The notes under the pieces were generated by a model that saw only the letters and a program-made list of their open reading frames with translations, did no database searches and was not told where the DNA came from. Of a stretch of DNA of 47,325 nucleotides, positions 25,621 through 29,814 are shown piece by piece. A program made the position numbers and the translations under genes. Origin of the DNA: an uncultured Bacteroidota bacterium (GTDB lineage: Bacteria > Bacteroidota > Bacteroidia > Bacteroidales > UBA12077); assembly GCA_913055635.1 (NCBI GenBank), contig CAJXLK010000036.1:1-47325 (forward strand), written 5' to 3'. How positions within the stretch are numbered: position 1 is the first letter of the stretch; every line of letters begins with the position of its first letter.

Positions 25621-26370
25621 ATGGCCCATCAACAAAAGAAGGTGGAAGTGGTGTTTTCACCTGCCCTTTACGGACTTTATGACAATCCCGAGGCCAATGT
25701 GGTGGTGGTCGATATTTTGAGGGCGACTTCAGCCATTGTTACGGCTTTTAAAAACGGGGTGGATCAGGTGATTCCTGTTCCCACCCGTGATGAAGCACGA
25801 ATATACAAGCAAAAGGGGTACCTGGTGGCTGCTGAGCGCGACGGTTATGTGTTGGATTTTGCTGATTTTGGCAATTCCCCTTATAACTTCACCCCCGAAC
25901 GCATTGAAGGCAAGAAGGTGGCCTACAGCACCACCAATGGCACCAAGGCTGTTTATCAGGCCAGCAACAGCAAACAGGTACTGATCGCTTCTTTTCTGAA
26001 TCTTACCGCCGTAGCCCAAATGCTCATCGAAAAGCACGATGAGGTGGTGATCCTTTGTGCCGGATGGCGCGGTAAGTTCAGCCTGGAAGATACCCTGTTC
26101 AGCGGAGCCCTGGTGGAACAATTGCTCGATTCAGGCCATTTTTACACCATTTGTGATTCGGCCACCGCATCCCTGGATTTGTGGCAGATGGCCAAGTCCA
26201 ACCTGATGCAATACATTCAACGGGTAGCACAAAGGGAACGCCTGCGCCAACGCGGGCTGGATGACGTGCTGGAGTATTGCCACACCCCTGACCTGACCAG
26301 CGAAATACCCGTTTTTGCCAATGGGGTCATCGAAAACTACCGCAAACTCACTGCCCACAAAATGAGTTAA
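25621..26370 (+). CDS. comB: 2-phosphosulfolactate phosphatase family protein (ComB)
   Basis: This 249-residue protein belongs to the ComB family, Mg-dependent phosphatases that convert 2-phosphosulfolactate to sulfolactate in archaeal coenzyme M synthesis. The family signature VVVVDILRATSAIVTAF with a catalytic Asp is at residues 29-45. AERDG, FGNSPYNF, YSTTNGTKAV and ILCAGWRGKFSLEDTLFSGALVE are further conserved blocks. Many Bacteroidota carry comB without the rest of the coenzyme M pathway, so the real substrate here is uncertain. It lies between gcvT and serC on the same strand, with 222 and 153 bp gaps, and is probably transcribed on its own. Confidence 0.9.
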   Translation: MAHQQKKVEVVFSPALYGLYDNPEANVVVVDILRATSAIVTAFKNGVDQVIPVPTRDEARIYKQKGYLVAAERDGYVLDFADFGNSPYNFTPERIEGKKVAYSTTNGTKAVYQASNSKQVLIASFLNLTAVAQMLIEKHDEVVILCAGWRGKFSLEDTLFSGALVEQLLDSGHFYTICDSATASLDLWQMAKSNLMQYIQRVAQRERLRQRGLDDVLEYCHTPDLTSEIPVFANGVIENYRKLTAHKMS

Positions 26371-26523: not shown

Positions 26524-27597
26524 ATGAAGAAACATAATTTTTACGCCGGACCATCTATTATGCCGCAGTACACGGTAGACAAAACTGCTGAAGCCATTAA
26601 GGAACTGGATAATACCGGTTTATCGGTGATGGAAATATCTCACCGCTCCAAAGAATTTGACCAGATCATTAAAGAGGCTCAACAACTTTTCAAGGATCTG
26701 TTGGATATCCCAGATGGCTATCATGTACTTTTACTGGGCGGTGGTGCCAGTACCCAGTTTTTGATGGTGCCTTACAACTTTTTCAACAAGAAAGCGGCCT
26801 ATCTCAATACGGGCAATTGGGCCAAAAAGGCCATTAAGGAGGCCAAATTTTTTGGCGATGTGGATGTGGTGGCTTCTTCGGAGGATAAAAATTTCACCTA
26901 CATCCCCCGCGATTATAAGGTACCCGGTGACGCCGACTACTTTCATATAACCTCCAACAATACCATTTACGGCACTGAGCTGAAAGAAGATCCGGACGTG
27001 AACATGCCCCTGATTGCCGATATGTCGTCTGATATATTAAGCCGACCGGTCGATGTCTCTAAATATGATCTGATTTATGGCGGGGCCCAGAAGAACCTGG
27101 CTCCGGCGGGAGTGACCTTTGTGATAGTTAAAGAGGAAGCCCTCGGAAAGGTCGATCGGCCTATTCCTACCATGATGGATTATCAGACCCACATCAAGAA
27201 AGAATCGCTTTTCAATACCCCGCCGGTGGTTCCCATTTATTCGGCCCTTCAAACCCTGAAATGGGTGAAGCAGCAAGGCGGAGTGGAAGGAATGAACAAA
27301 ATCAACAATGAGAAGGCCCGGATGATGTATGAGGAGATCGAGCGCAACAAACTGTTCACCCCCAATATTGAACATGAACAGGATCGTTCCATCATGAATG
27401 TGACCTTTGTGATGAACGACGATTACAAAGACCTGGAAAAGGAATTCCTGGATTTTGCCACCGAAAGGGGCATGATTGGCATCAAAGGCCACCGTTCAGT
27501 AGGCGGTTTCCGGGCCTCCCTTTATAACGCCCTGCCTAAGGAAAGCGTTCAGGCCCTGATCGATGTCATGCAGGAGTTTGAAAATAAAAAAGCGTAA
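26524..27597 (+). CDS. serC: Phosphoserine aminotransferase
   Basis: SerC is a PLP enzyme that converts 3-phosphohydroxypyruvate and glutamate to phosphoserine and 2-oxoglutarate. The 357 residues start [15 protein letters not shown], the usual N-terminus. The PLP lysine is Lys190 in [12 protein letters not shown]. Other conserved stretches are [28 protein letters not shown] and the C-terminal [17 protein letters not shown]. It is the first gene of an apparent operon, with 19 bp to serA and a further 20 bp to DUF1015. Confidence 0.97.
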
Positions 27598-27616: not shown

Positions 27617-28537
27617 ATGAAAAAGATATTGGTAGCCACCGTTAAACCTTTCCACCCCAATGCAGTGGAAAGCATCCGGGAAATTTGCTCGAAAGCCGGA
27701 TATGAGTTCAACCTGCTGGAAAAGTATCAGGACAAGTCGGCCCTTCTGGAAGCCGTTAAGGATGCCAATGCGCTGATTGTTCGCAGCGATAAAGTTACCA
27801 GTGATGTCATAGAAGCCGGTAAGAACCTGGAGATCATCGTCCGGGGCGGTGCAGGATATGACAACGTTGATCTGCAAGCCGCTTCCAAAAAGAATATCGT
27901 GGTGATGAATACCCCCGGGCAAAATTCCAATGCCGTGGCCGAGTTGGCCCTGGGCATGATGGTTTATTTTGCCCGCAATCAGTTCAACGGCAAAGCCGGC
28001 ACCGAACTTCGCGGTAAGAAACTCGGCATCCATGCCTTTGGCAACGTTGGCCAGTTGGTCGCTGAAGTGGCCCAGGGCTTCAATATGGACGTGTATGCCT
28101 ATGATCCCTTTGCCAAAGAAGCCGACATCCGGGAGAAAGGAGTTATCCCGGTTCAATCGGCCGAGGAGCTCTATCAAACCTGCCAGTATGTTTCCATCCA
28201 TATACCGGCCAATGATAAAACCAAGGCTTCGATCAATTATGACCTGATGAAGCGGATGCCTGAAAATGCCACCCTGGTCAATACGGCCCGCAAAGAAGTC
28301 ATTGACGAGGAAGGCCTGCAAAAGATCATGAAAGACCGCGACGATTTCAATTACATATCCGATATTGCCCCTGATTGCAAAGAGGTCTTTGAGGAAAACT
28401 ATGAAGGACGCTTCTTCTTTACCCCCAAGAAAATGGGGGCCCAGACATCTGAGGCCAATATCAATGCCGGTATTGCAGCCATCAATCAGATCAAGAATTA
28501 TTTTGAGAACGGCGACCGAACTTTTCAGGTAAATTAG
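27617..28537 (+). CDS. serA: D-3-phosphoglycerate dehydrogenase, lysine-type active site
   Basis: This NAD-dependent dehydrogenase catalyses the first step of serine synthesis. The start MKKILVATVKPFHPNAVESI is chosen; the frame extends 18 codons upstream into serC without family similarity. It has 306 residues and no ACT or ASB regulatory domain, so serine feedback through those domains is absent. The substrate loop RGGAGYDNVD and Arg225 are present. The usual Glu and His of the dehydrogenase relay are not: the His position of TPHIGA reads TPKKMGAQT, and the Glu of the VFxxEP block aligns with APDCKEV (Cys254). The Rossmann loop is HAFGNVG, with Ala for the first Gly. A lysine replacing the His is known from the type IIIK enzyme of Entamoeba and its bacterial relatives. 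It lies between serC and DUF1015. Confidence 0.93.
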   Translation: MKKILVATVKPFHPNAVESIREICSKAGYEFNLLEKYQDKSALLEAVKDANALIVRSDKVTSDVIEAGKNLEIIVRGGAGYDNVDLQAASKKNIVVMNTPGQNSNAVAELALGMMVYFARNQFNGKAGTELRGKKLGIHAFGNVGQLVAEVAQGFNMDVYAYDPFAKEADIREKGVIPVQSAEELYQTCQYVSIHIPANDKTKASINYDLMKRMPENATLVNTARKEVIDEEGLQKIMKDRDDFNYISDIAPDCKEVFEENYEGRFFFTPKKMGAQTSEANINAGIAAINQIKNYFENGDRTFQVN

Positions 28538-28557: not shown

Positions 28558-29814
28558 ATGGCAATTGTAAAACCGTTTAAAGGAATCCGACCCCCGAAAC
28601 AGCATGCCGAAGAGGTGGCATGTCTGCCCTATGATGTCATGAATACGGAAGAAGCCCGTGAAATGGCCAAAGGCAAGGAAAAATCCTTGCTTCATATCAC
28701 CCGCAGTGAAATTGATCTGCCGGAGAACACCGATCCCCACGCAGGGGAAGTCTATGACCAGTCAAAGGACAATTTCAAAAAGTTCATGGAGAAGGGCTGG
28801 CTTCAACAGGAAGACAAACCCAAATTTTATATTTATGCCCAGACCATGAATCATCAAACCCAGTATGGCATTGTAGGGGCTGCTGCTGTCGACGATTATC
28901 TGAACGGGATCATCAAAAAACACGAATTGACCCGGCCCGATAAGGAAGAAGACCGGATGAAAATCATCCGCGAGAACAATGCCGATCTGGAACCGGTGTT
29001 CTTTACCTATCCGGCGGTGGATGAAATTGATCAGCTGGTCGATCAGGTGGTTCAAAGCAAGGATCCTGAATATGACTTTGTTTCTGAAGACGGGTTCGGA
29101 CACCATTTCTGGGTTATTGACGAGGATGCCACCAATGAAAAGATCGAGCGGCTCTTCGCCGAGAAGGTGCCCAATACCTATGTCGCCGACGGGCACCATC
29201 GTACAGCTGCTGCCGCTCTGGTAGGGAAGGAAAAACGCGAAAAGAATCCCAATCATACCGGCCAGGAAGCCTATAACTATTTTATGGCCGTACATTTTCC
29301 GGACAATCAGCTCCACATCCTTGATTACAACCGCGTGATCAAAGACTTGAACGGTCTGGAGCCTGCTGATTTTATGGAAAAGCTCAAGGATGCCTTTGTC
29401 ATAGAGGAGAAAGGCAGTGAACCCTATAAGCCGGCTGAAATGCATACCTTTTCCATGTACCTGGAAGGCAAATGGTATGCCTTAAAAGCCAAAGAACATA
29501 CCTATGACGACAATGACCCCATTGAGGGCCTGGATGTAACCATCCTGACCAACCAGGTATTGCAACCCATCCTGGATATTCAGGATCTGAGGCGCTCCAA
29601 ACGCATTGATTTTGTTGGCGGCATCCGGGGGCTCAAAGAGCTCCAGCGCCGCGTAGACAGCGGTGAGATGAAGGTGGCTTTTGCTCTTCATCCTGTCTCT
29701 CTGAGTCAGCTCATCCATATTGCCGATACCGGTAACATCATGCCCCCGAAGACCACCTGGTTTGAACCCAAGCTTCGCAGCGGGCTGGTTATTTATAAGT
29801 TTGAGGATGTTTGA
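28558..29814 (+). CDS. DUF1015 family protein in the serine operon
   Basis: This 418-residue cytoplasmic protein matches DUF1015, a family of unproven function often found beside serA and serC. Conserved blocks are the N-terminal IVKPFKGIRPPKQHAEEVACLPYDV, the KKHELTRPDKEEDRMKI block (about 120-135) and YVADGHHRTAAAALVGKE (about 208-225). The DGHHR motif recalls the motif of the ParB/sulfiredoxin fold that also includes serine kinases, so a role in handling phosphoserine is plausible, but this is inference. No phosphoserine phosphatase (serB) is in the window. It is 20 bp after serA and ends with a strong terminator at 29869. Confidence 0.88.
   Translation: MAIVKPFKGIRPPKQHAEEVACLPYDVMNTEEAREMAKGKEKSLLHITRSEIDLPENTDPHAGEVYDQSKDNFKKFMEKGWLQQEDKPKFYIYAQTMNHQTQYGIVGAAAVDDYLNGIIKKHELTRPDKEEDRMKIIRENNADLEPVFFTYPAVDEIDQLVDQVVQSKDPEYDFVSEDGFGHHFWVIDEDATNEKIERLFAEKVPNTYVADGHHRTAAAALVGKEKREKNPNHTGQEAYNYFMAVHFPDNQLHILDYNRVIKDLNGLEPADFMEKLKDAFVIEEKGSEPYKPAEMHTFSMYLEGKWYALKAKEHTYDDNDPIEGLDVTILTNQVLQPILDIQDLRRSKRIDFVGGIRGLKELQRRVDSGEMKVAFALHPVSLSQLIHIADTGNIMPPKTTWFEPKLRSGLVIYKFEDV

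Follow-up and report, generated by a model that had tools for sequence, protein, structure and literature searches.

Which protein completes serine synthesis in an uncultured Bacteroidota bacterium whose serC and serA genes lie together with no serB near them? The last step of this pathway is a recognized gap. In its account of this step, PMC9026213 reports 450 gut genomes (diverse Firmicutes) that contain serA and serC and none of the four known SerB types; further SerB gaps are listed by GapMind in the corresponding portion of PMC7311316, and Caldithrix is given as lacking SerB in the relevant passage of PMC5317091. The four types, SerB1 (HAD), SerB2 (PF00300), SerB3 (YseA) and SerB4, belong to different families, and DUF1015 is not named among them where PMC9026213 describes them. 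In the window, i.e. the whole stretch of 47,325 nucleotides analyzed here, serA is followed by a DUF1015 gene, whose product would have with all four SerB types the proposed pathway step in common. It had been suggested that it could interconvert phosphoserine and serine or sense serine, and we present it as a candidate for the missing step.

A literature search, largely confined to papers outside subscription, returned no paper naming both DUF1015 and a serine-type word. A table of PMC12828279 groups the domain with 'Electron transport chain', and 'DU1015' appears among domains fused to the ParB-CTPase fold in the section of PMC12704722 that names them.

The serC-serA-DUF1015 Operon

The DUF1015 gene (28558..29814, forward strand) encodes a 418-residue protein, which the ORF call, Pfam, an AlphaFold2 model, Foldseek and a profile alignment together describe as free-serine-kinase-like. 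PF06245 (DUF1015) is covered over the whole of its 325 profile positions with an E-value of 1.5e-114 and 382.7 bits, against a gathering cut-off of 25.8, and at E ≤ 0.001 it is the sole Pfam domain of the protein, with no DNA-binding domain and no HAD match. No NCBIfam model matches the protein, including TIGR00338, which represents the HAD-type phosphoserine phosphatase SerB. The genome from which the window comes is 99.3% complete and has this single DUF1015 gene.

Upstream on the same strand lie serC (26524..27597), encoding a phosphoserine transaminase that scores 476.1 bits with NF003764 and 456.1 bits with TIGR01364, both above cut-off, and a serA-like phosphoglycerate dehydrogenase gene (27617..28537). 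In the 306 residues encoded by the latter, Pfam finds two 2-hydroxyacid dehydrogenase domains, a weak NAD-binding one and no ACT domain; at 194.4 of 454 bits, the protein remains under the PGDH equivalog cut-off of NCBIfam. The gaps between the three genes are 19 and 20 bp. Further upstream, downstream of gcvT and 153 bp before serC, is a gene of the ComB-like 2-phosphosulfolactate phosphatase family (25621..26370, forward strand; PF04029), which is below the cut-offs of all eight NCBIfam models that it matches.

With presence of SerB defined here as a TIGR00338 score over the cut-off of 144.15 bits, the genome of the window contains no canonical SerB, the best stretch reaching 21.4 bits. A PspA-type histidine phosphatase was considered and rejected, as the sole PF00300 protein of the genome at E ≤ 0.01 is nearest to SixA and itself under the SixA cut-off. 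The HAD proteins of the genome comprise a GmhB-like one, a KdsC-like one and a third for which no model reached its cut-off. The features on which the original prediction was built are all present: the ORF and its VADGHHRTAAA motif (by ORF call, Pfam and alignments), the gene order with its short gaps (by coordinates), a SerA without ACT domain (by Pfam) and the absence of serB from the window, which the TIGR00338 profile extends to the whole genome.

Predicted Fold and Active-site Residues

The AlphaFold2 model, for which the window protein was aligned to 50 relatives, has a mean pLDDT of 92.6 and a pTM of 0.87. Foldseek matched it at E ≤ 0.001 to nine chains in the PDB, all of which are free serine kinases of the SerK type, including the Pyrococcus relative 1vk1, or SbnI of staphyloferrin B synthesis (5uje, 5ujd and 6nr6), with a probability of 1.00 and TM-scores of 0.52–0.63 by target length and 0.34–0.40 by query length; a viral structure library gave no match at the same threshold. 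The SerK reference is the ADP-dependent free serine kinase TK0378 (5x0b, 5x0e, 5x0g, 5x0j and 5x0k). Using VIA-align, the SerK/SbnI-like core (residues 89–418; 28822..29811, forward strand) gave Z-scores of 12.0–13.6 over 213–226 residues with an r.m.s.d. of 4.1–5.5, compared with 5.5 over 99 residues for human sulfiredoxin and 3.6 over 82 residues for the ParB N-domain. As both Z-score and aligned length exceed those for sulfiredoxin and ParB, the match takes in parts of SerK beyond those that align with these two proteins. The predicted fold extends over nearly the whole SerK chain (225–226 residues; 221 for 1vk1), and SbnI is matched at Z 12.0–12.2. The N-terminal part of the model (residues 1–88; 28558..28821, forward strand) falls outside most of these alignments, the aligned range beginning at residue 89–97 in seven of the nine rows and at residue 27 in two. 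The DUF1015 protein differs from SerK in this extra part of about 88 residues, in its hosts and in sequence (13–16% identity, with an r.m.s.d. of about 5).

The likeness extends to individual residues in a profile built from 16 diverse DUF1015 proteins, the other 15 of which are 18–73% identical to the window protein. Against PDB sequences this profile found 1vk1 at an E-value of 4.8e-5 and SerK entries at 0.0038–0.015, the remaining five rows being Prp8 chains at 0.22–0.27, which were taken as chance. In the two best rows, blocks containing HE30, DGHHR and PKTT align in order. The first of these blocks was not reported in the two rows of SerK E30 mutants; Glu30, which we take to be catalytic, is mutated in 5x0e, 5x0g, 5x0j and 5x0k. 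As single blocks are weak (i-E-values of 1.8 to above 1000), weight can be given only to the score of the whole sequence and to the block order. When a short, divergent DUF1015 protein from Fusobacterium is searched alone, the four best matches are SerK entries and 1vk1 (E-values of 0.012–0.037). Searching the PDB sequences with single sequences or with the close family gave no relevant match and no DUF1015 chain, and no sequence-level search matched SbnI, which also differs in gene context from the window.

The residues concerned lie in three places, all on the forward strand. Glu123 of the pair His122-Glu123 (28921..28926) is aligned with SerK Glu30 by HMMER, in a block that is not significant alone. 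The sequence A210-D-G-H-H-R215 (29185..29202) contains the DGHHR common to SerK residues 69–73 and corresponds to the phosphate motif GxxR, termed Box II P motif in the part of PMC12704722 on this fold. The C-terminal motif (29743..29772), which includes P396, K398, T400 and K405, aligns with the SerK PKTT ending at residue 223 and contains the PKxT of free serine kinases. All these residues (H122, E123, A210–R215, P396, K398, T400 and K405) are invariant across the 16 diverse members, down to 18% identity, and A210–R215 are also invariant in alignments of 33 and 51 sequences. The helix-turn-helix and C-terminal dimerization domains of ParB are absent (Pfam, E ≤ 0.001). The sulfiredoxin motif GCHR, in which the catalytic cysteine of that enzyme lies, is not found either, the 16 DUF1015 members having an invariant GHHR. 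The suggestion, made from the motif, that the fold is of the ParB/sulfiredoxin type to which free serine kinases belong is thus well supported by the predicted structure and the residue-level profile match, and the structure search proposed with it gave, for the predicted model, SerK and SbnI as the only confident matches.

Conservation of the Gene Order

Two sets of loci were compared, which have at least one genome in common: 40 neighborhoods chosen non-randomly from 52 relatives that have DUF1015 besides the window's own genome, and 80 GTDB loci kept out of 582 confirmed. On the same strand, serA is found no more than 1 kb upstream of DUF1015 in 32 of the 38 relatives' neighborhoods with sufficient flank. 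The GTDB loci contain both serA and serC in 50 cases and serA only in 3, with 23 unlinked and 4 at a contig edge. The same order is seen in Bacteroides finegoldii and, outside Bacteroidota, in Listeria monocytogenes, where serC and a phosphoglycerate dehydrogenase gene precede DUF1015; a complete Listeria chromosome has no SerB over cut-off. In Enterococcus raffinosus the operon is the same, and the last base of the dehydrogenase gene is the first base of DUF1015. The linkage of the three genes exceeds chance. In an earlier account of two Porphyromonas species, the section on this region counts serC, a gene for an NAD(P)-binding protein and one for a DUF1015 protein among the conserved genes upstream of ffp1, with no function assigned there; this is the order seen in the window.

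Distribution of DUF1015 and SerB

Among 59 genomes of relatives, including the window's own, 53 have DUF1015 and 8 have SerB over cut-off; one relative (G053, 100% complete) has SerB and no DUF1015. In the wider Bacteroidota sample DUF1015 occurs in 251 of 296 genomes and SerB in 85. In a reconstructed tally of 295 of these genomes, 74 have both genes, 177 DUF1015 only, 11 SerB only and 33 neither. DUF1015 is therefore found in 177 of the 210 genomes counted as SerB-less, a count that includes eleven whose SerB matches are weaker, and the two genes show no anticorrelation in this sample (Fisher p = 0.59). Strict replacement of SerB across Bacteroidota is unsupported by this test and by the 74 genomes with both. 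SerC was found in 28 of the 36 genomes tested that have DUF1015 without SerB.

Of the 33 genomes with neither gene, 24 also lack SerC over cut-off. The other nine (L181–L189) have serC and serA with neither SerB over cut-off nor DUF1015; DUF1015 was looked for beside serC in these genomes and not found. The gap at the last step remains there, and some other solution must exist in them.

Of 398 genomes from a second phylum, to which the alphaproteobacterial genome G355 belongs, 55 have DUF1015. In the 80 tested, which are a non-random choice of related, not independent, genomes, SerB was found in 8 of 40 with DUF1015 compared with 35 of 40 without it (p = 1.2e-9, kinship ignored). Neither serC nor serA was found within five ORFs of DUF1015 in any of the 17 neighborhoods, out of 20, where DUF1015 was located. 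Seven small-genome members have both genes, and in five of these SerB lies 0.3–3.0 kb from DUF1015 on the other strand, the distance being at least 13 kb in the remaining two. Four alphaproteobacterial loci with DUF1015 show no serC or serA in the stretch examined and no SerB at E ≤ 1e-20, absences that prove little as the genomes are only 0.9–1.0 Mb. At some loci of this phylum (L260, L261, L264 and L266), DUF1015 is preceded by a gene with response-regulator and Hpt domains, in some cases overlapping.

The 14 control genomes contain SerB over cut-off in seven and DUF1015 in three. Bacteroides ihuae and Methanosarcina acetivorans have both genes, Thermotoga maritima has DUF1015 alone and six have neither; that two of the three DUF1015-bearing controls also have SerB counts against a SerB role for the family. 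The cut-off misses seven of the 14, six of which also lack DUF1015, and these include Bacillus subtilis and Corynebacterium glutamicum. C. glutamicum has a phosphoserine phosphatase. B. subtilis has one as well, according to the relevant part of PMC9026213, and consequently a genome counted here as SerB-less is not necessarily phosphatase-free.

The idea that DUF1015 fills in for a missing serB therefore holds in part. It agrees with the SerB-less genome of the window, with the 177 of 210 genomes and with the contrast in the second phylum, but not with the 74 genomes that have both genes or with the Fisher test. Whether genomes with the serC-serA-DUF1015 order lack serB has a similarly divided answer: serA is linked to DUF1015 in 29 of 32 SerB-less relatives versus 3 of 6 SerB-bearing ones (p = 0.039), but the 74 genomes again show that the two genes can occur together.

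Divergent Branches of the Family

Single, more distant DUF1015 genes have other neighbors. In Streptomyces the gene follows that of a PLP enzyme, for which the best NCBIfam model is SbnA (252.8 of 349.95 bits), and a transporter gene, a further likeness to the SbnI system. In Fusobacterium it follows a nucleotidyltransferase/aminotransferase fusion whose best model is CobD (169.7 of 290.55 bits; HisC, 154.8). At this locus (Fusobacterium vincentii, L212:2271-5912) the fusion stands in a row between a formyltransferase-like gene and the DUF1015 gene, which is short (349 residues), and the cluster could turn phosphoserine into an activated group of the phosphoethanolamine type. On a Thiodictyon plasmid (L203:2205-7266), cobD, bluB and a cobyrinate a,c-diamide synthase gene are oriented divergently to DUF1015, whose product is a candidate threonine or serine kinase of cobamide synthesis. 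In Monoglobus (L204:3107-7927) DUF1015 directly precedes genes for homoserine dehydrogenase, thrB and aspartate kinase. These divergent genes adjoin genes for enzymes that act, or may act, on phosphorylated hydroxy-amino acids, which is suggestive only.

Proposed Function and Alternatives

The gene order and its conservation, the predicted fold, the motif match and a genome with no SerB over cut-off support the DUF1015 protein as a candidate for the last step of serine synthesis. We consider it fairly probable, from sequence and a predicted structure, that DUF1015 is a distant, larger branch of the free-serine-kinase superfamily that acts on serine or phosphoserine and here most likely works towards serine. 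The two parts of this reading differ in strength. The substrate is very likely to be serine or phosphoserine, and action between the two, as originally suggested, is well supported by the predicted structure, the profile match and the gene order in two phyla; that the protein of the serC-serA operon works towards serine is a reasonable, less secure expectation.

SerA and SerC would produce O-phosphoserine. The DUF1015 protein, predicted to have the ParB/sulfiredoxin fold of SerK and SbnI plus its extra N-terminal part, would use the invariant Glu123 as the counterpart of SerK Glu30 and DGHHR (211–215) as the phosphate-binding GxxR box, with the C-terminal PPKxT loop completing the active site. 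Most likely it would take the phosphoryl group off phosphoserine and hand it to an acceptor, presumably water, AMP/ADP or phosphate, and by releasing serine in this way it would do the job of SerB. Moving a phosphoryl group from a simple phosphate ester onto a nucleotide is an uphill reaction, so that hydrolysis, or transfer to phosphate followed by a pyrophosphatase, would be easier than making ATP. SerK and SbnI are called kinases after the opposite reaction, the phosphorylation of serine, and the activity of DUF1015, which is a predicted one, probably runs opposite to that of SerK in physiological terms.

A pyrophosphate-dependent serine kinase has reportedly been found in Thermotoga and Entamoeba, and we presume that it may belong to DUF1015; T. 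maritima has a DUF1015 gene. A search for this enzyme, mostly within literature outside subscription, found no report of it. Should this enzyme indeed belong to DUF1015, the family would have a known activity already, and its place in serine synthesis and in the operon would be what is new.

The main rival to action towards serine is the forward kinase reaction, with SerC and SerA running backwards to 3-phosphoglycerate and so assimilating serine or glycine, or with phosphoserine feeding another pathway. SerK and SbnI are themselves kinases, gcvT lies upstream in the window, and for the divergent DUF1015 genes the SbnA-like and CobD-like neighbors point to the kinase direction. In the passages of PMC5120207 on this route, a path from serine to 3-phosphoglycerate is proposed for Thermococcus, and serK is described near serA-like dehydrogenase and aminotransferase genes in Desulfurococcales, a likeness to the DUF1015 operon. 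Avoidance of SerB would fit too, as a kinase and SerB together would form a futile cycle, but 74 genomes contain both DUF1015 and SerB, and serine synthesis in the SerB-less genomes would be left to glycine or to an unknown phosphatase. We regard the forward direction as unlikely on this balance, though worth serious consideration.

Removal of the phosphate by another enzyme, either the product of the upstream ComB-like gene or a HAD protein, with DUF1015 unrelated to the step, appears improbable. The ComB-like gene is close to serC, the genome has the HAD proteins named above, and the nine genomes with serC and serA and neither gene show that other solutions exist. Among the 40 relatives' loci, 10 have the ComB-like gene close to DUF1015, most of them from the same family as the window; of the 80 GTDB loci only 7 have it there, compared with 53 for serA. 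The ComB-like gene was therefore rejected as a general phosphatase partner and retained as a rival candidate, at this same low probability, for the window's own genome. A specific and nearly full-length match to SerK would, moreover, have to be a coincidence. A non-catalytic sensor of serine or phosphoserine, or a regulator of SerA and SerC, is more improbable still. A SerA without ACT domain would suit it, and SbnI is reportedly a regulator as well. ParB-fold proteins can act as nucleotide switches, as stated in the part of PMC12704722 concerned with them. Against this, the protein consists of DUF1015 alone by Pfam, with no domain for binding DNA, and the residues of the SerK site are invariant across distant members that have other neighbors.

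Returning to phosphoryl transfer from phosphoserine as the preferred reading, a broader view of the family can be offered tentatively, and we hold it with less than even confidence. DUF1015 may be a widespread family of free hydroxy-amino-acid phosphotransferases, in which the serC-serA branch ends serine synthesis by SerK-type transfer and not by a HAD phosphatase, the phosphate possibly being conserved on a nucleotide or as pyrophosphate, and in which other branches supply SbnA-like, CobD-like and threonine-pathway enzymes with phosphoserine or phosphothreonine. For a recognized gap in serine synthesis, DUF1015 offers a concrete candidate, a single gene for whose product the active site can be named. 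If the proposal is true, it would give a function to a family present in most of the sampled Bacteroidota genomes (251 of 296), and it would mean that the ParB/sulfiredoxin fold widely serves central metabolism.
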